From NCBI GenBank assembly GCA_012727735.1, contig JAAYGM010000209.1, positions 1 to 47,177 on the forward strand: DNA of 47,177 bases. The letters run 5' to 3'. This document shows positions 188 to 37,610 of the stretch, in pieces. The notes under the pieces are model-generated. The model worked only from the letters and a program-made list of their open reading frames with translations, was not told the origin of the DNA and did no database searches. Origin of the DNA: Bacteroidales bacterium (GTDB lineage Bacteria > Bacteroidota > Bacteroidia > Bacteroidales > Dysgonomonadaceae). The position numbers were made by a program, and so were the translations under genes. Within the stretch, counting starts at the first letter, position 1. Each line of letters starts with the position of its first letter.

Positions 188-754
188 TTAAATGAACCAC
201 TGCATGCTGCTCTCACCGGCATCGGCCACGAACGTGGTGGCACCGGCATAACGCAGGTGCGGATAATCGATCATCTCCTCTTTTTTGAACCCCATCAGGT
301 TCATCGACATCTCGCATACCGTGATCTCCACTCCCAGATCGGCTGCCTCTTTGAACATCGCATCGAGTGACATCACATTCTGTTTCTTCATCAGGCTTTT
401 AATCATCACCGGTCCCATGCCGCACATATTCATATTGGAGAGCTTCAGCTTGTTGCGCCCTTTGGGGAGCATCATGCCGAACATCTTCGAGATAAAATCT
501 TTGTTTTTCGCCTTTTTCTTCGGATCACGTAGTGCGGAGAGTGCCCAGAACGAGAAGAAGAGCTTCACTTCAGAATCCATCGCAGCTGCCGCCAGTGAGA
601 TGATCATCGCTGCCAGGATCTTGTCCATATCACCTGATACGATGGCGATGGATAGCTGATCTTTTCTTGATTCTTCGAGGAGCAATGTTTTCGCTTTAAT
701 GTTCTCCAGCTCTTGTTGAAGCGCTTCCATTGAAAGGGGAGTAGATTTTTCCAT
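188..754 (-). CDS. DsrE/DsrF-like family protein
   Basis: This 188-residue protein has a short charged helical N-terminus (about 1-35), then a DsrE/DsrF-like Rossmann-type fold. Supporting features are the segment following SIAIVSGDMDKILAAMIIS (about 35-55), a hydrophobic strand (VKLFFSFWAL, 63-72) and a CGMGP segment (111-115). A second cysteine, C147, sits in the VCEMSMNLMG motif that resembles the conserved cysteine region of this family. Relatives bind or relay sulfane sulfur or act as small redox proteins, and are often mislabelled peroxiredoxins. The gene is transcribed divergently from a Crp/Fnr regulator and shares a 181-bp spacer holding a CRP-type palindrome. The family assignment is good; the substrate is unknown. 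Confidence 0.8.
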   Translation of the reverse strand: MEKSTPLSMEALQQELENIKAKTLLLEESRKDQLSIAIVSGDMDKILAAMIISLAAAAMDSEVKLFFSFWALSALRDPKKKAKNKDFISKMFGMMLPKGRNKLKLSNMNMCGMGPVMIKSLMKKQNVMSLDAMFKEAADLGVEITVCEMSMNLMGFKKEEMIDYPHLRYAGATTFVADAGESSMQWFI

Positions 755-849
755 AGATCGTCTGTATAAATTTGTAAATGAATAATATGCAAATTAAAGA
801 AATAATTCTTCAATAATTTTTTTTTCTCTGGTGCATATTTTTACTTTAA

Positions 850-883
850 TTTGTGAGATATGTCACATCTTTCTCTAACTTTG
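850..883 (+). promoter_or_regulatory. Promoter of the first Crp/Fnr gene
   Basis: TTTG at 850-853 and TAACTTTG at 876-883 match the Bacteroidota -33 and -7 elements, with a 22-bp gap that is slightly long. The downstream gene starts at 936, so the leader is about 45 nt. The CRP-type palindrome at 852-867 overlaps the -33 element, which predicts repression or autoregulation. For the divergent gene the only -7 candidate is an imperfect TTAATTTG on the minus strand at 790-797. Confidence 0.65.
852..867. promoter_or_regulatory. CRP-type operator palindrome
   Basis: TGTGAGATATGTCACA is a perfect TGTGA-N6-TCACA inverted repeat in the spacer between the divergent DsrE-like gene and the Crp/Fnr gene. 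The adjacent Crp/Fnr protein carries R187, E188 and R192 in its recognition helix, in the same register as R180, E181 and R185 of E. coli CRP, which read the TGTGA half-site. This makes it the likely binding protein, by inference. Confidence 0.75.
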
Positions 884-935
884 TTGAAGTGATCAGTAAC
901 CAGATGAAATTGACAGGTTTAATTGAAAAGAAAGA

Positions 936-1613
936 ATGAGAAACGAATGCATCGACTGTGACTGTGTGTTGAAATCCTCTGTAGAGCTGAAAGATTGCCA
1001 GATGGAGATGCTGGGCGGTCACCATGCGGTGGTGAAGTTCAGGAAAGGAGACCCGGTTATCAAACAGGGTGTGTTTTCAACGAATGTGATTTTTCTCCGT
1101 AAGGGGATGGCCAAAGTGCATATAACCGGTCCTTCACGAGAGCAGATCGTGCGTTTGGTGAAGGCTCCTACCTACCTTGGTCTTCCTACCACATTTGGCG
1201 ATAAGATTAACCAGTATAGTGTGACCGCTGTGCTCGACTCGGAAGTCTGCTTTATCGATCTGGGTGTATTTAAGAAGTTGCTGAGTGAGAACAGAGAATT
1301 CAACAGCTACATCCTCCTGGAGCTCTGCAAGAGTGAGCTTGAGGCCTACCGGCGTTGTGCCAGCCGTACACAGAAGCAGATGCGGGGGAACCTTGCCGAT
1401 GTGCTGCTTGAATTCTCGGAGCATCTTTTTGAGTCGGATCAGTTTACACTACCCCTCTCGCAATCAGATATAGGAAACTGGGTGGATGCAGGAAGGGAGA
1501 GCATCAACCGCGCCCTCTCGGAGTTTATCCAGGACGACATTATTGAAATGACGGGAAGAAAGGTGAAAATCACCAATAAAAAATTACTGAAAACCATCAG
1601 CCAGAATGGTTGA
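936..1613 (+). CDS. Crp/Fnr family regulator, Cys-rich N-terminus
   Basis: This 225-residue protein has a cyclic-nucleotide-binding-like beta-roll (about 25-120), a dimerisation helix (about 120-150) and a C-terminal winged helix (about 160-220). The recognition helix reads GRESINRALSEF, so R187/E188/R192 match the CRP register rather than the FNR one. The N-terminus has C5, C8, C10 and C21, a spacing reminiscent of but not identical to the Fe-S ligands of FNR; C105, C131 and C141 are further cysteines. The beta-roll lacks an obvious cAMP-binding RS signature, so a redox, NO or metal signal is more likely than cAMP. The palindrome just upstream suggests autoregulation and control of the divergent DsrE-like gene. 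Confidence 0.88.
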   Translation: MRNECIDCDCVLKSSVELKDCQMEMLGGHHAVVKFRKGDPVIKQGVFSTNVIFLRKGMAKVHITGPSREQIVRLVKAPTYLGLPTTFGDKINQYSVTAVLDSEVCFIDLGVFKKLLSENREFNSYILLELCKSELEAYRRCASRTQKQMRGNLADVLLEFSEHLFESDQFTLPLSQSDIGNWVDAGRESINRALSEFIQDDIIEMTGRKVKITNKKLLKTISQNG

Positions 1614-1687
1614 GATTATTGAATTTCCTGTTGTCCGGGTTGGTTGAGCAATAGATTTCCTCCATTCCTGACTCTTCCGTAAAGCGG

Positions 1688-2383
1688 CTACCCCAATCGT
1701 TCTATCTTCTCCAATCCGGTACGATCAATAATTTTTATACCCTTCCCCTCGAGCACAATTACCCCGTCTCGCTCAAACTCTTTCAGCAGTTTGATGGCGC
1801 TCTCGGTGGCCACGGAGGCGAAATTGGCCAGATCCTGACGGGAGAGGTGCCCGAAGATCTCCTGCCCTGTGAAGTCGTCGCCACTCAGGTAAAGCAGCGC
1901 AGAAGCCACCTTGCCCCGCATCTGCTTGTAAGTCATATTCCCGATGACGGTGAGCAGCTGTCTTTCGTTGCGGTAATTGCGTGAGGTGATGCGCATGGCG
2001 AACTCCGCGTTGCGCAGCAGCAGGGTCCGCATCTTCTCCCTGTCAATCATGCATACCTGCGTGTCGGTAAGTGCTACTGCCGAGGTGGCGTGAACCGTCT
2101 CTCCGAAAAGGGAGGAGAAGGCAAGGAAATCGCCCGCTTTGGCCAGTTGCAGGTTAAGCTGTTTTTCTCTTCCCGTTTGCAGATACACCTTTACCAGACC
2201 ATCCATGATCAGCAGTACATGGGTCGAGAAAGCGCCCTGTTTGAAAAGGTTCTCCCCGGCAAGATAGGTCAGTTCCGTCTTTCCCGAACTGATCAGTTCC
2301 AGCTCTTCCGGTTTCAGGTCCCGGAAACAGGCTACCATCTTTTCGCAGTCATCCATCTCATCTTTCATTTCCTGGTTCATCAC
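1688..2383 (-). CDS. Crp/Fnr family regulator (second paralogue)
   Basis: This 231-residue protein has a sensor beta-roll (about 15-125), a long dimer helix and a winged helix (about 165-225). The recognition helix reads VATESAIKLLKEF: the positions matching CRP R180/E181/R185 are T193, E194 and K198, so it should not read the same site as its neighbour. The N-terminus has only C13 and C19. It faces its paralogue convergently, with about 75 bp between stops, and is divergent from the thioredoxin-like gene. Its own promoter region holds a pair of direct repeats. The effector is unknown. Confidence 0.87.
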   Translation of the reverse strand: MMNQEMKDEMDDCEKMVACFRDLKPEELELISSGKTELTYLAGENLFKQGAFSTHVLLIMDGLVKVYLQTGREKQLNLQLAKAGDFLAFSSLFGETVHATSAVALTDTQVCMIDREKMRTLLLRNAEFAMRITSRNYRNERQLLTVIGNMTYKQMRGKVASALLYLSGDDFTGQEIFGHLSRQDLANFASVATESAIKLLKEFERDGVIVLEGKGIKIIDRTGLEKIERLG

Positions 2384-2396
2384 ATGATATTTTTTT

Positions 2397-2404
2397 CAAA
2401 GATA
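2397..2404 (-). promoter_or_regulatory. -7 promoter element of second Crp/Fnr gene
   Basis: The minus strand reads TATCTTTG, a full match to TAnnTTTG, about 14 bp upstream of the start at 2383. The expected -33 region falls on the CTGA/TCAG palindrome and the direct repeats at 2414-2447. Confidence 0.6.
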
Positions 2405-2413
2405 CAATCTTTT

Positions 2414-2447
2414 CCGGAAACTGATTTGCGTCAGCCCGGGAACTGAT
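2414..2447. repeat. Direct repeats, 22-bp spacing, possible operator
   Basis: CCGGAAACTGAT (2414-2425) and CCGGGAACTGAT (2436-2447) match at 11 of 12 positions and are 22 bp apart, two helical turns. The first also contributes to a CTGA-N6-TCAG palindrome (2421-2434). They lie in the divergent spacer between the second Crp/Fnr gene and the thioredoxin-like gene, over the expected -33 region of the former. A regulatory role is inferred. Confidence 0.5.
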
Positions 2448-2511
2448 CAATTTCATCCTGTTGCATGGGGGATGTCATCCTCTTTTACTCGTTCTGCCGC
2501 TCATTATACCT

Positions 2512-2519
2512 TACCTTTG
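2512..2519 (+). promoter_or_regulatory. -7 promoter element of thioredoxin-like gene
   Basis: TACCTTTG matches TAnnTTTG and lies 33 bp before the start codon at 2553. No clear TTTG is visible in the -33 region, so the promoter may need an activator. Confidence 0.55.
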
Positions 2520-2552
2520 TATCCGGAAATAAATCTTTAAAACAACAATAAA

Positions 2553-2900
2553 ATGAAGTACTTAAGAACAGGCATTCAGGAAATTGAAACAGCGGATGAA
2601 TTACAGAAGATCATCAGCGAGAACGAAAATGTGATGGTGTGTTGCGGCCGTATGGGACCTATGTGTATCCCCGTATATGAGATTATGGAAGAGCTCGAGG
2701 AGGAGCGTCCCGGAGTGAAATTTTACTCTATGGCATTCGATAGCCCCGAGTCGGGCGTGATTCGCAATGCTCCCGAATGTCGCGGTTTTATGGGACTCCC
2801 ATTCACCATGTATTACAAAAATGGTCAGGTAGCCAAGGCAACCACCAGCATTCAGGATATGTCGCAGATCACTGCTAATCTCGATCAGTATCTTGCATAA
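2553..2900 (+). CDS. Atypical thioredoxin-fold protein without CxxC
   Basis: This 115-residue protein has the thioredoxin layout: an N-terminal helix, a strand (ENVMVC, 25-30), the active-site loop and helix (31-50), the strand VKFYSMAFD, and the cis-proline segment GLPFTMYYKNG (81-91). The canonical WCGPC is replaced by C30, C31, then GRMGPM, then C38, so the pairing would be CCx6C. A fourth cysteine, C76, precedes the cis-Pro loop. The next gene, about 150 bp downstream, is a TrxB-like flavoprotein, which suggests a dedicated electron donor. The protein could be a thioredoxin with altered redox properties or an adaptor; classic disulfide reductase activity is doubtful. Confidence 0.8.
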   Translation: MKYLRTGIQEIETADELQKIISENENVMVCCGRMGPMCIPVYEIMEELEEERPGVKFYSMAFDSPESGVIRNAPECRGFMGLPFTMYYKNGQVAKATTSIQDMSQITANLDQYLA

Positions 2901-2921
2901 GCGAGACGATCAATGAAAAAT

Positions 2922-3022
2922 GATGTGGGGAATGCTGCTTTTATGGCGTGTTTCCCGCATCTTTTGAAGAGATAGGGTAACCATATCCGGCCGACATGAG
3001 ATTGTCGTGATGGAAGGTTACC
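2922..3022 (+). other. Two hairpins between thioredoxin-like gene and trxB
   Basis: GATGTGGG (2922-2929) pairs with CCCGCATC (2954-2961), with one G-T pair, and is followed by only four T residues. GGTAACC (2976-2982) and GGTTACC (3016-3022) form a second, longer-looped inverted repeat ending shortly before trxB. They could attenuate or protect the transcript. No TAnnTTTG promoter is evident between the genes, so co-transcription is plausible. Confidence 0.4.
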
Positions 3023-3051
3023 GTTTAAATAAATAGCCAAAGAGCGAAATA

Positions 3052-3978
3052 ATGGAAAAGATATATGATGTGATGATATTTGGAGCCGGTGCAGCCGGAC
3101 TCTCAGCGGGGATCTATGCTTCCCGCGGTAAGCTCGACACGCTGATACTGAGTGAAGGGGTGACCGGTGGGCAGATGGTGCTGACGAACGAGATTGCCAA
3201 CTACCCGGGTGTGGAGACAGTGAAAGGGTATGAACTGGCGGACAGCATGAAGCGGCAGGTGAAGAGTTTTGGTTGTACGTTGAAGACCAATGTGAAAATC
3301 AAGGAGTATCGTCTTTCCGACGAAATTAAGGAGGTAGAGCTCGGGGACGGAAGAGTTTTCCGCGCGAAAGCAGCGATTCTTGCCCCCGGTGGCAGGCCCC
3401 GCTCCCTTAACATCCCCGGTGAGAAAGAGTTTGAAGGACGGGGAATCTCCTACTGTGCCACCTGCGATGCCGATTTCTTCAAGGACAAGAGACTGGTCGT
3501 GGTGGGAGGCGGTAATTCCGCCCTGGAAGAGGCGGTAACGCTCACTCATTTCGCATCTCATGTCACCATCGTGCATCAGTTCGACCATTTTCAGGCTTTT
3601 GCGCATGCGGTGGAGGAGGCGGAACGCAATCCAAAAATCAGTTTTATCATGGAATCGGAGCTGAGAGAATACAGCGGTGGAGAGACGCTGGAGAAAGTGA
3701 AGATTGAGAACCTCAGGACTGGAGAGGTCTCTGAGCTGGAGACCGATGGTGTTTTTGTCTTTATCGGTTATATTCCCAATACGGAGGCATTCAGAGATTT
3801 CGTGGAGACCAACCAGAACGGTGAGTTTGTTGTGGATCCGTTAATGAAGACCAGCCTGCCGGGCATCTATGCTGCCGGCGACTGTGTGGCAAAACGCTAT
3901 CGTCAGGTGACCACCTCCGTGAGCGACGGTACAATTGCAGCACTTAGTGCAACCGAATATATCCGTACAAAAAATTAA
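3052..3978 (+). CDS. trxB: Thioredoxin reductase-like flavoprotein
   Basis: This 308-residue protein has the low-molecular-weight thioredoxin reductase layout: an FAD GAGAAG motif (11-16), an inserted nucleotide-binding domain with VVVGGGNSALEEA (149-161), the redox-active CATC (135-138) and the C-terminal FAD motif GDC followed by RQVTTSVSDG. The HRRxxxR segment that holds the NADPH 2'-phosphate in classical enzymes is replaced by HQFDHFQ (175-181), so NADH or another donor may be preferred. The atypical thioredoxin immediately upstream is the likely substrate. The gene ends at a strong hairpin terminator. The family is certain; the electron donor is inferred. Confidence 0.92.
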   Translation: MEKIYDVMIFGAGAAGLSAGIYASRGKLDTLILSEGVTGGQMVLTNEIANYPGVETVKGYELADSMKRQVKSFGCTLKTNVKIKEYRLSDEIKEVELGDGRVFRAKAAILAPGGRPRSLNIPGEKEFEGRGISYCATCDADFFKDKRLVVVGGGNSALEEAVTLTHFASHVTIVHQFDHFQAFAHAVEEAERNPKISFIMESELREYSGGETLEKVKIENLRTGEVSELETDGVFVFIGYIPNTEAFRDFVETNQNGEFVVDPLMKTSLPGIYAAGDCVAKRYRQVTTSVSDGTIAALSATEYIRTKN

Positions 3979-21942: not shown

Positions 21943-23055
21943 ATGAGAAAATTAATTTATCTATTCATAATGGCTGGCATCGCTCTATCTTGCCAGAACA
22001 GTAAGGAGTATGCAGTCAACGGAACCATAGCCGATGAAGCATTCGAGGGTACCCGCGTCTATATGCAGGAAATGACTGACGATGCAATGATCACTACCGA
22101 TACAGCTGTTGTACAAAACGGTAAATTCGCTTTTGCAGGCGTTGCCGATACAACAGTGCTTCGTTTTATCCTGCTGGATGAGACAGTGAGTCCCGGGCAG
22201 GAGACCAGAATACCTCTGTTGGTTGAACCCGGCAAGCTGACAGTGTCCTTTGATTCTGTTGTCACAGTGAAAGGGAGCAAGGTGAATGAATCCTATACTG
22301 ACTTCAGGATGAAACAGCGGGATTTTGGCAAAAGCATCAGGACAGTTGTTGAGAGATACAACAATGCCATGGCTACCGGCACAATGACTGACACGCTGGA
22401 AGCTGAAGTCAATGAAGCCTATGATAAAATCAACGAAGAAATGACCGAGTTGAATTTTAATTTCATCAAGGACAATATCAAAAACGATCTGGGAAAGTAC
22501 TCTTTCATGGCTTCTTCCTCTATGTTTGAACCGGAAAAACAGAAAGAGATCCTTGCGCTTGCCGATGATGAGTTCAAGGCAAAGGAAAACATTCAGCGTG
22601 TGGTGAAACGCCTGGAAAACCTTGAAAATGTAGCTGTCGGGAAAAAATTTGTTGATTTCACATTGAAAGATACTCAAGGTAATGATGTCTCTCTTTCCGA
22701 TTATGCAGGAAAAGGGAAGTATGTACTGGTTGATTTCTGGGCTGCATGGTGTGGTCCCTGTCGCCAGGAAATGCCTAATGTTGTGGCAGCCTATGATAAA
22801 TACAAATCGAGAGGATTTGAAGTTGTGGGTGTCTCATTTGATCAGGAACAGGACAAATGGTTACAGGGGATCGCCGACCTGAACATGACCTGGCCGCAAA
22901 TGTCAGACCTGATGTATTGGGACAGCCCTGTGGTCGATTTATATGCCATCAACGGCATACCACACACCGTCCTGCTGGATAAGGAAGGTGAAATTATCGG
23001 TAAGAATTTAAGAGGTGAAGCACTTGATGCTAAATTGGCAGAATTGATGCCTTAA
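21943..23055 (+). CDS. TlpA-like thioredoxin lipoprotein with DUF4369-type domain
   Basis: This 370-residue lipoprotein has lipobox ALSC with the lipidated Cys at 17. Residues about 22-125 form a DUF4369-like beta domain (VNGTIADEAFEGTRVYMQEM), a helical linker follows, and the C-terminal 145 residues are a TlpA/ResA-type thioredoxin domain with WCGPC (C270, C273) and cis-proline in NGIPHTVLLD. Such proteins reduce disulfides in the periplasm, for cytochrome maturation or sulfoxide repair. It is monocistronic, with its own promoter and terminator. Confidence 0.9.
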   Translation: MRKLIYLFIMAGIALSCQNSKEYAVNGTIADEAFEGTRVYMQEMTDDAMITTDTAVVQNGKFAFAGVADTTVLRFILLDETVSPGQETRIPLLVEPGKLTVSFDSVVTVKGSKVNESYTDFRMKQRDFGKSIRTVVERYNNAMATGTMTDTLEAEVNEAYDKINEEMTELNFNFIKDNIKNDLGKYSFMASSSMFEPEKQKEILALADDEFKAKENIQRVVKRLENLENVAVGKKFVDFTLKDTQGNDVSLSDYAGKGKYVLVDFWAAWCGPCRQEMPNVVAAYDKYKSRGFEVVGVSFDQEQDKWLQGIADLNMTWPQMSDLMYWDSPVVDLYAINGIPHTVLLDKEGEIIGKNLRGEALDAKLAELMP

Positions 23056-36920: not shown

Positions 36921-37610
36921 TTAATAACGTGCACTAATCACTTCCCAATCCAGAATCTTCCAGATCTCTTTCAGATGTTCGGCACGGCGATTCTGGTAAT
37001 CAAGATAATATGAATGTTCCCATACATCGAATCCCAGGACCGGGGTTAATCCGCTGGTGAGTGGATTGCCGGCATTGCTTTCCTTGAGGATGGATAACTT
37101 GCCGTTGCCATCTTTTGCCAGCCATACCCAGCCTGAACCAAAGACTGCCGTTCCGGCCGCATTGAATTCTTCCTTGAACTGATCGAATGAACCAAACTGT
37201 TCATTGATCGCATCAGCTAATTTCCCTTTTGGCTCGCCTCCGCCATCTTTTTTAAAGGAAGTAAAATAGATATTATGGTTGAGAATCTGACCGGCGTTAT
37301 TGAAAATCGCTCCATCGCTCTCTTTCACCACGGTTTCGAGATCTGCATTTTCAAATTTCGTTCCGGTGGCCAATCTGTTTAAATTGTCCACATAGGCCTG
37401 ATGATGCTTCCCATAATGAAGTTCAACTGTTTGTTTGCTTATAACCGGCTCTAAAGCATCGGTTGCATAAGGTAATGCTACTTTTTCAAATTTCATATTT
37501 ACTCTATTTTTAGAATTATTATTTTCGTTATTTTTAGCGTTGGAATTATTGCAACTGATCAGAGATAGCGCAAAAAATCCCGTCAACAGGTAATAATGTA
37601 TTGCTTTCAT
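36921..37610 (-). CDS. sod: Fe/Mn superoxide dismutase with lipoprotein leader
   Basis: The 229-residue product dismutates superoxide. Metal ligands H65, H112, D195 and H199 are all present in family context (LHYGKHHQAYV, ILNHNIYF, FDVWEHSYY). Residues 1-20 form a lipoprotein signal ending in LISC (C20), followed by an Asn-rich linker to M39, where ordinary cytosolic enzymes begin. The predicted product is thus a membrane-anchored, periplasm-facing enzyme; an alternative start at M39 (37496) would give a cytosolic form. Confidence 0.93.
   Translation of the reverse strand: MKAIHYYLLTGFFALSLISCNNSNAKNNENNNSKNRVNMKFEKVALPYATDALEPVISKQTVELHYGKHHQAYVDNLNRLATGTKFENADLETVVKESDGAIFNNAGQILNHNIYFTSFKKDGGGEPKGKLADAINEQFGSFDQFKEEFNAAGTAVFGSGWVWLAKDGNGKLSILKESNAGNPLTSGLTPVLGFDVWEHSYYLDYQNRRAEHLKEIWKILDWEVISARY

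Follow-up and report, generated by a model that had tools for sequence, protein, structure and literature searches.

The CxxC pair of cysteines is the textbook definition of a thioredoxin. Dedicated pairs of an unusual thioredoxin and its own reductase have been described: Desulfovibrio vulgaris has an NADH-preferring reductase (TR3) together with a non-canonical thioredoxin (Trx3), a pair whose cellular function is given as unknown in a study that also sorts reductases by their docking, pyrophosphate and HRR motifs (PMC5627308). Here we describe a thioredoxin-fold protein without CxxC (trx) and a neighbouring thioredoxin-reductase-like flavoprotein (TR), encoded on contig JAAYGM010000209.1 of a Bacteroidales bacterium, which was analysed over its full length of 47,177 nucleotides (the window). 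Our preferred reading, tentative but quite possible, is that trx and TR form a dedicated couple with a displaced-cysteine centre, controlled by the Crp/Fnr-family regulator CrpB and lying beside a separate module made of a dsrE-like gene and a second regulator gene, crpA.

Like TR3/Trx3, the couple would give an anaerobe a second thioredoxin with a reductase of its own, and both reductases have lost the NADPH HRR residues; TR3 is described from Desulfovibrio (PMC5627308), whereas the couple of the window is found in Bacteroidota. The clostridial TrxA3/TrxB3 pair is similar in that a special, non-WCGPC thioredoxin (GCEPC) has its own reductase and serves there one pathway, glycine reductase, but the clostridial protein retains CxxC, which occurs in 0/126 loci here (PMC10880999).

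The window is an entire contig (C108), so that its position 1 is a contig end; the genome to which it belongs measures 3.02 Mb and is assembled in 309 contigs. A first-pass annotation had placed five genes at positions 188-3978, and they are present there in the order it gave: dsrE-like, crpA, crpB, trx and TR. The dsrE-like gene (- strand) and crpA (+) diverge from one spacer, crpB (-) and trx (+) diverge from another, and TR (+) lies downstream of trx. Among the matches listed, the closest named relative is a Proteiniphilum metagenome-assembled genome whose trx is 93% identical. The five genes are two modules, crpB-trx-TR (module 1), which is widespread in Bacteroidota, and dsrE-like-crpA (module 2).

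The trx gene (2553-2900, +) encodes P0004, which has a thioredoxin fold as judged from its AlphaFold2 (AF2) model and VIA-align. In place of WCxxC the family carries the motif (C)CGRMGPMCxPV, represented in the window by CCGRMGPMC at residues 30-38 (2640-2666, +). At least 505 loci on genome contigs were confirmed; 80 of the loci analysed are the best-scoring of these and are biased to near relatives, and merging of identical trx DNA reduced 136 loci to 126 distinct ones, to which the counts below refer. G32, R33, M34, G35 and V41 are each present in 126/126, C38 and P40 each in 125, C31 in 119 and C30 in 104, and every locus has Cys at one or both of residues 30 and 31. CxxC is absent in either register, with Cys at position 35 in 0/126 loci and at position 41 in 0/126, so that the lack of this motif, already pointed out by the first-pass annotation for the single protein, extends to all 126. 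P83, also found in 126/126, aligns with the thioredoxin Pro, the cis-Pro that faces the active site.

Against TIGR01068, P0004 scores 14.7 bits (curated cut-off 96.8), and it lies over the cut-off of no Pfam or NCBIfam model. The trx-family alignment (A1) holds 55 of 57 rows, L085 (C-terminus cut) and L086 (distant) being excluded; among 55 family members, matches at E<=0.01 number 3 for PF00085 and 32 for TIGR01068, and 27 members match NF047697 (ThioredTrxAClost) weakly, with a best E of 4e-5. When the family profile was compared with 8 ordinary thioredoxins by hhalign, the C-terminal third alone aligned, with a probability of 5.6. Of 198 genomes of the order, 57 contain the family, in one case as a distant member (36%), and a search of viral contigs gave 8 pattern matches, 0 of which were confirmed as relatives. 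Separately, a single genus-level group (f124/g158) has 12 genomes, G218, G222 and G367 among them, with a protein in open frames of mostly ~240-260 amino acids (aa) that matches the trx profile weakly, at E 3e-4 to 2e-6, and may be a distant relative of the family.

In the AF2 model of P0004 a strand spans residues 26-31, which places C30/C31 at the end of the second strand, and a helix spans residues 36-51, with C38 as its third residue. Judged by the boundaries of E. coli thioredoxin, this would be the place of the resolving Cys, and Gly35 would stand at the place of the nucleophile. In five PDB alignments C38 coincides three times with the second Cys of CxxC and twice with the first, Val41 then falling on the resolving Cys. 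When the family was scored without gaps against 60 ordinary neighbour thioredoxins, 2641 of 3300 pairings favoured C38 as the first Cys. An hmmsearch on 60 neighbour thioredoxins yielded 5 usable alignments, with C38 on the first Cys in 4 and on the second in 1, and 0 came from the reverse search. That the nucleophile has been replaced by Gly is one of two possible readings, as the PDB alignments are split and gap-free scoring favours the other register.

A CX6C pairing of C31 or C30 with C38 is possible in both registers, and the register with C38 as nucleophile also allows a one-cysteine protein; the most likely centre of trx is either an unusual CX6C or a single cysteine. In the one-cysteine explanation, which we consider unlikely though still worth weighing, C38 would be the nucleophile of a CxPV-type monothiol or persulfide carrier, Val41 would stand for the resolving Cys, C30/C31 would be structural or auxiliary, and TR would free the bound thiol or sulfur. 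It gains from the near-constancy of C38, P40 and V41, whereas C30 and C31 each vary, and from the CxPV register favoured by gap-free scoring and by two of the five PDB alignments; it loses from the Cys at 30 or 31 in every locus and from the third-residue position of C38 in the model helix, presumably the resolving place. A role of trx as a sensor, with a metal or Fe-S cluster on its displaced cysteines, seems to us highly improbable: CC and C do lie close together, at the strand end and the helix start, but there are two to three cysteines only, C30 is variable, and the partner reductase points to thiol chemistry.

The second gene of the couple, TR (3052-3978, +), encodes P0005, a low-Mr thioredoxin reductase by its Pfam Pyr_redox_2 and PDB matches, with a score of 342.7 bits against TIGR01292 that falls narrowly under the cut-off of 343.45 and an AF2 model with a predicted local distance difference test (pLDDT) value of 92.2. 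We aligned it with 42 of 56 neighbours (alignment A2; identity >=50% and >=280 aa). CATC (C135 and C138, redox-active; 3454-3465, +), GxG, F142 and GGGNxAxEE are invariant in the 43 rows, and F143 is found in 40. At the site of the NADPH 2'-phosphate motif HRRDxxRA, P0005 has HQFDHFQA (3574-3597, +): H175 and Q181 occur in 43 rows, position 176 is Q in 40, E in 2 and M in 1, and position 177 is F in 42 and L in 1. With no Arg or Lys at 176, 177 or 181 in any row, HRRDxxRA is absent, and the description of the reductase as lacking the 2'-phosphate motif can be extended to the alignment. The same genome codes a second TrxB, 33% identical to P0005, with basic residues (VRKNYLRA) at that site. P0005 probably uses NADH, which we infer because the loss of HRR together with an intact pyrophosphate motif resembles TR3, yet P0005 keeps the docking residues that TR3 has lost.

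Among described reductases, TR3 no longer has the GR/KG and F docking residues (CxQ and P instead), unlike P0005 with its GxG, F142 and F143. The isolated, NAD(P)H-independent reductase TRi shares the loss of HRRD, but its pyrophosphate motif is degenerate and it has TQ/NGK, where P0005 has an invariant GGGNxAxEE, HQFD and a thioredoxin gene as partner (PMC5627308). The presence of GGGNxA also separates P0005 from the ferredoxin-dependent flavin TR (FFTR), which has no NAD(P)-binding motif. A Bacteroidales thioredoxin-reductase fusion is similar too: the 422-aa protein at L076:10513-11781 (+) joins a thioredoxin domain to a reductase domain 46% identical to P0005, with the same HQFD replacement, but its thioredoxin domain has an ordinary CPPC. 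Further reductase matches, 42-46% identical, lie in open frames of ~422-493 aa in other genomes of the order. In L033 and L124 the TR match downstream of trx is fragmented (frame change, middle missing) and trx itself is intact.

The two genes are linked. Of the 117 distinct loci with enough flank, 103 have TR next to trx, 3' of it and in the same orientation. The TR subfamily (identity >=53%; the next group stands at <=46%) was found, by matches at E<=1e-70, in 46 of the 198 genomes of the order, and it accompanies the trx family in 46/46 and occurs in 0/141 genomes without it (Fisher p 7e-35, uncorrected for relatedness). Outside the class, 395 genomes from the phylum gave 20 strong trx matches in 19 genomes, and TR adjoins trx in all of the best 8 of these 20 that we inspected. 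We therefore regard trx and TR as a conserved, dedicated thioredoxin/reductase couple whose genes travel together, at the same tentative strength as the preferred reading of which this is part. These data also bear on an alternative in which trx has no redox activity, acting as a chaperone or regulatory subunit, and TR serves the ordinary thioredoxins of the cell. TR does retain the docking residues GxG and FF, and the genome codes ordinary thioredoxins (e.g. WCGPC in L093); but the cysteines of trx are conserved, the TR subfamily co-occurs with trx without exception and the genome has another TrxB, and we consider this alternative improbable.

Several observations weigh against the couple as we read it. 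C38 is ambiguous, being either the resolving Cys, with the nucleophile falling on Gly35, or the nucleophile, with its partner falling on Val41, and residues 31-40 of the AF2 model have a mean pLDDT of 81, lower than every block except the N-terminal one. C31 is missing from 7/126 loci and C30 from 22/126, and that one of them is always kept is possibly chance: all 7 loci without C31 have C30, which is not significant given these frequencies. NADH use is read from the absence of basic residues, and the TR listing across the 198 genomes covers matches at that one threshold. Finally, 14 of the 117 trx loci are without an intact adjacent TR; these include the Draconibacterium loci L134, L139 and L143, in which OsmC comes after trx and, in two of the three as called, a membrane-anchored WCGPC thioredoxin does so as well.

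Regulation of the couple probably falls to the divergent gene crpB (1688-2380, -), whose product P0003 is a Crp/Fnr-family regulator by Pfam. Among the 107 distinct loci with a left flank of >=2.6 kb, 68 have a CrpB homologue in divergent orientation upstream of trx. C12, C18 and C110 of CrpB are kept in 9/9 close sequences; in 81 wider homologues C18 is found in 64, C110 in 55 and C12 in 36. The crpB-trx spacers of the window and 12 relatives align around CTGA..TCAG (operator 2a, CTGATTTGCGTCAG, 2421-2434) plus a second, imperfect site in which the CTGA..TCA columns are kept (operator 2b, CTGATCAATTTCA, 2443-2455). A -7-like box of trx (TACCTTTG, 2512-2519, +) follows; boxes of this kind are named here after TAnnTTTG, the Bacteroidetes -7 consensus, which is found in 12 of the 13 aligned spacers, L103 being the exception.

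Of 76 crpB-trx regions of relatives, 19 have an exact CTGA-N6-TCAG, which occurs in none of the shuffled sets; within one mismatch it is found in 38 regions against 6.2 in shuffled sequence (first-order resampling, 12 sets; the 76 regions are related, not independent). Its carriers include distant lineages such as L114, L116 and L140. Other Crp-type sites, of the FNR-box kind, are mildly enriched: TTGATN4ATCAA is exact in 2 regions (shuffled mean 0.17) and within one mismatch in 9 (3.6), and TTGTN6ACAA in 7 (1.3) and 30 (22). Given the position of the site and its conservation, CrpB probably controls trx-TR and its own gene through this putative operator. In a second group of relatives (L044, L164, L062 and L057) the spacer is without CTGAN6TCAG and has other palindromes, e.g. 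CTGTTGCACAACAG in L057, and the operator of CrpB may have changed there.

Module 2 has a different operator. The dsrE-like gene (188-754, -) encodes a sulfur-carrier-type protein, P0001, which scores 149.7 bits (E 8e-44) against PF13686 of the DsrE_2 superfamily, well over the curated cut-off of 25, and 61.3 bits against the NCBIfam DsrE2 equivalog, whose cut-off is 210. C111 and C147 are conserved in 9/9 aligned sequences. DsrE2 is characterised by two transmembrane helices; in P0001 the best 19-residue hydropathy window reaches 1.61, the four best windows lying within one region. The regulator crpA (936-1613, +) encodes P0002, with Pfam cNMP_binding and HTH_Crp_2 domains. The clustered N-terminal cysteines that had been noticed in one regulator are those of CrpA: C5, C8, C10 and C21 (C5-x2-C8-x-C10-x10-C21) are kept in 9/9 aligned sequences, together with C105 and C141. 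This spacing differs from that of the N-terminal, 4Fe-4S-binding cysteines of the O2 sensor FNR, and CrpA scores 41.8 bits against NCBIfam FnrL (cut-off 300).

In the dsrE-crpA spacers of 9 loci TGTGA-N6-TCACA is exact in 6 and has one mismatch in 3, lying a few bases before a TAnnTTTG box aligned in 9/9; in the window these are operator 1 (TGTGAGATATGTCACA, 852-867) and the -7-like box of crpA (TAACTTTG, 876-883, +). At one mismatch within the window alone, the motif occurs at chance level. The genome has 6 exact sites, 5 of them inside open reading frames (ORFs), and since operator 1 is the sole intergenic copy, crpA looks like a local regulator. The operator-like sites described for the two divergent spacers are thus conserved palindromes in both, with different motifs. 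We propose that dsrE-like and crpA make up a sulfur module in their own right, one that was added locally and has a putative operator to itself.

In the relatives L101, L102 and L112 the genes after dsrE are tusA, flpD and an HdrA-like one, TusA and FlpD being confirmed by Pfam in L112; L118 has dsrE, flpD and an HdrA-like gene, with a different ORF called where tusA is expected, and L141 has tusA and HdrA-like genes. "HdrA-like" is our reading of a protein with FAD/pyridine-nucleotide and 4Fe-4S domains in Pfam. This arrangement is like that of DsrE/TusA/Hdr-like sulfur-trafficking clusters. Searching the genome of the window with TusA of relatives gave 0 matches, and with their HdrA-like proteins partial matches only, 39% or weaker, with no full orthologue; the tusA/HdrA-like operon is either missing from this organism or in an assembly gap. 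The lack of detectable orthologues and the link to Crp regulators set the locus apart from such clusters and from the YTD cluster (PMC12998232), as does yedE, which did not turn up in the neighbour lists of six loci, no search aimed at yedE having been made.

The first-pass annotation had joined all five genes into one sulfur- or oxygen-responsive thiol relay and had named conservation of the gene order as its test. By the identity thresholds applied, 8 of the 126 distinct loci keep the order; all are near relatives (trx 79-93% identical) and are labelled Proteiniphilum, Porphyromonadaceae, Bacteroidales or Bacteroidetes; one of them, L115, has an extra 856-aa ORF between crpA and crpB. Looser versions exist, with a 43% crpA homologue adjoining crpB in L076 and, in L085, a 34% crpA homologue beside crpB and a dsrE homologue 8 kb off. 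The near relatives L103 and L104, with 10 kb of left flank, have crpB-trx-TR and no dsrE or crpA match. Given the order in only 8/126 loci and the absence of module 2 from these two, a single five-gene system is not supported. The part of the proposal that stands is the linkage within module 1, by the adjacency and co-occurrence of trx and TR, the upstream CrpB and the spacer motif; the part that falls away is dsrE and crpA. A relay of all five genes may draw on the 8 complete loci, on the looser crpA homologues, on the palindromes in both spacers and on the tusA, flpD and hdrA-like genes that adjoin dsrE in relatives. Its completeness in just those 8 loci, the different spacer motifs (TGTGAN6TCACA is found in 0/76 crpB-trx regions, which indicates separate control) and the finding of no tusA match and no full hdrA-like orthologue in the genome argue against it, and we think it quite improbable.

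For the couple itself we propose the following route. In TR a pyridine nucleotide, probably NADH, would reduce the FAD. Transfer from FAD to the CxxC disulfide, here C135/C138, is established for this enzyme family. Electrons would then pass from C135/C138 to trx, to be taken up on the C30/31-C38 pair in a CX6C disulfide cycle, and trx would hand them to a sulfur-containing target, while CrpB would sense a signal and act at CTGA-N6-TCAG.

The neighbourhood suggests what kind of target this might be. Within 6 kb of trx, the 126 distinct loci have a membrane-anchored WCxPC thioredoxin in 44, OsmC in 29, a NifX-like protein in 26, DUF302 in 13, a thioredoxin-glutaredoxin fusion in 11, DsrE in 8, a CoA-disulfide-reductase/rhodanese in 6 and TusA in 4; the Pfam names come from one representative each, the NifX-like protein is under the cut-off, and the CoA-disulfide-reductase/rhodanese name is our reading of the sequence. 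Together with the genes adjoining dsrE, these families, OsmC and DUF302 among them, suggest thiol/sulfane-sulfur chemistry. The OsmC, DUF302, DsrE, rhodanese-type and TusA neighbours would suit a one-cysteine trx too, although each is infrequent. The fullest version of our proposal, a widespread second Bacteroidota thioredoxin system in which CxxC is abolished, the working disulfide is CX6C (C30/31-C38), the reductase is its own and of NADH type, control is by Crp/Fnr and the target is sulfane sulfur, is doubtful as a whole.

Some further thiol- and redox-related genes were seen. On another contig of the same genome (C92; L095:657-2191) an ArsR-like regulator, a small GCLSGTCPIT-containing membrane protein, a lipoprotein WCGPC thioredoxin and a DUF302-like protein stand together, as identified by eye, and genes like these adjoin the displaced-cysteine trx in some other genomes. 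Elsewhere in the window there are an exported TlpA-like protein whose thioredoxin domain has an ordinary WCGPC (21943-23055, +) and, by eye, a superoxide-dismutase-like protein with an apparent lipoprotein signal, LSLISCNNS (36921-37610, -), which may be an exported form.

In the literature searched we found no description of a displaced-cysteine thioredoxin couple, and the letters GRMGPM are absent from 5.39 million open-access papers, a set that most subscription journals lie outside. A thioredoxin without the usual Cys pair but with conserved Cys at another spacing, accompanied by its own TR, suggests that a universal redox system has a variant not yet described. The hosts include named strains of Marinilabilia, Draconibacterium, Prolixibacter and Mariniphaga, which makes the couple testable. 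If the reading is true, the redox centre of the thioredoxin fold can move or shrink to one cysteine, and the couple could split thiol reduction between NADPH, by way of the ordinary TrxB, and NADH within one anaerobe.

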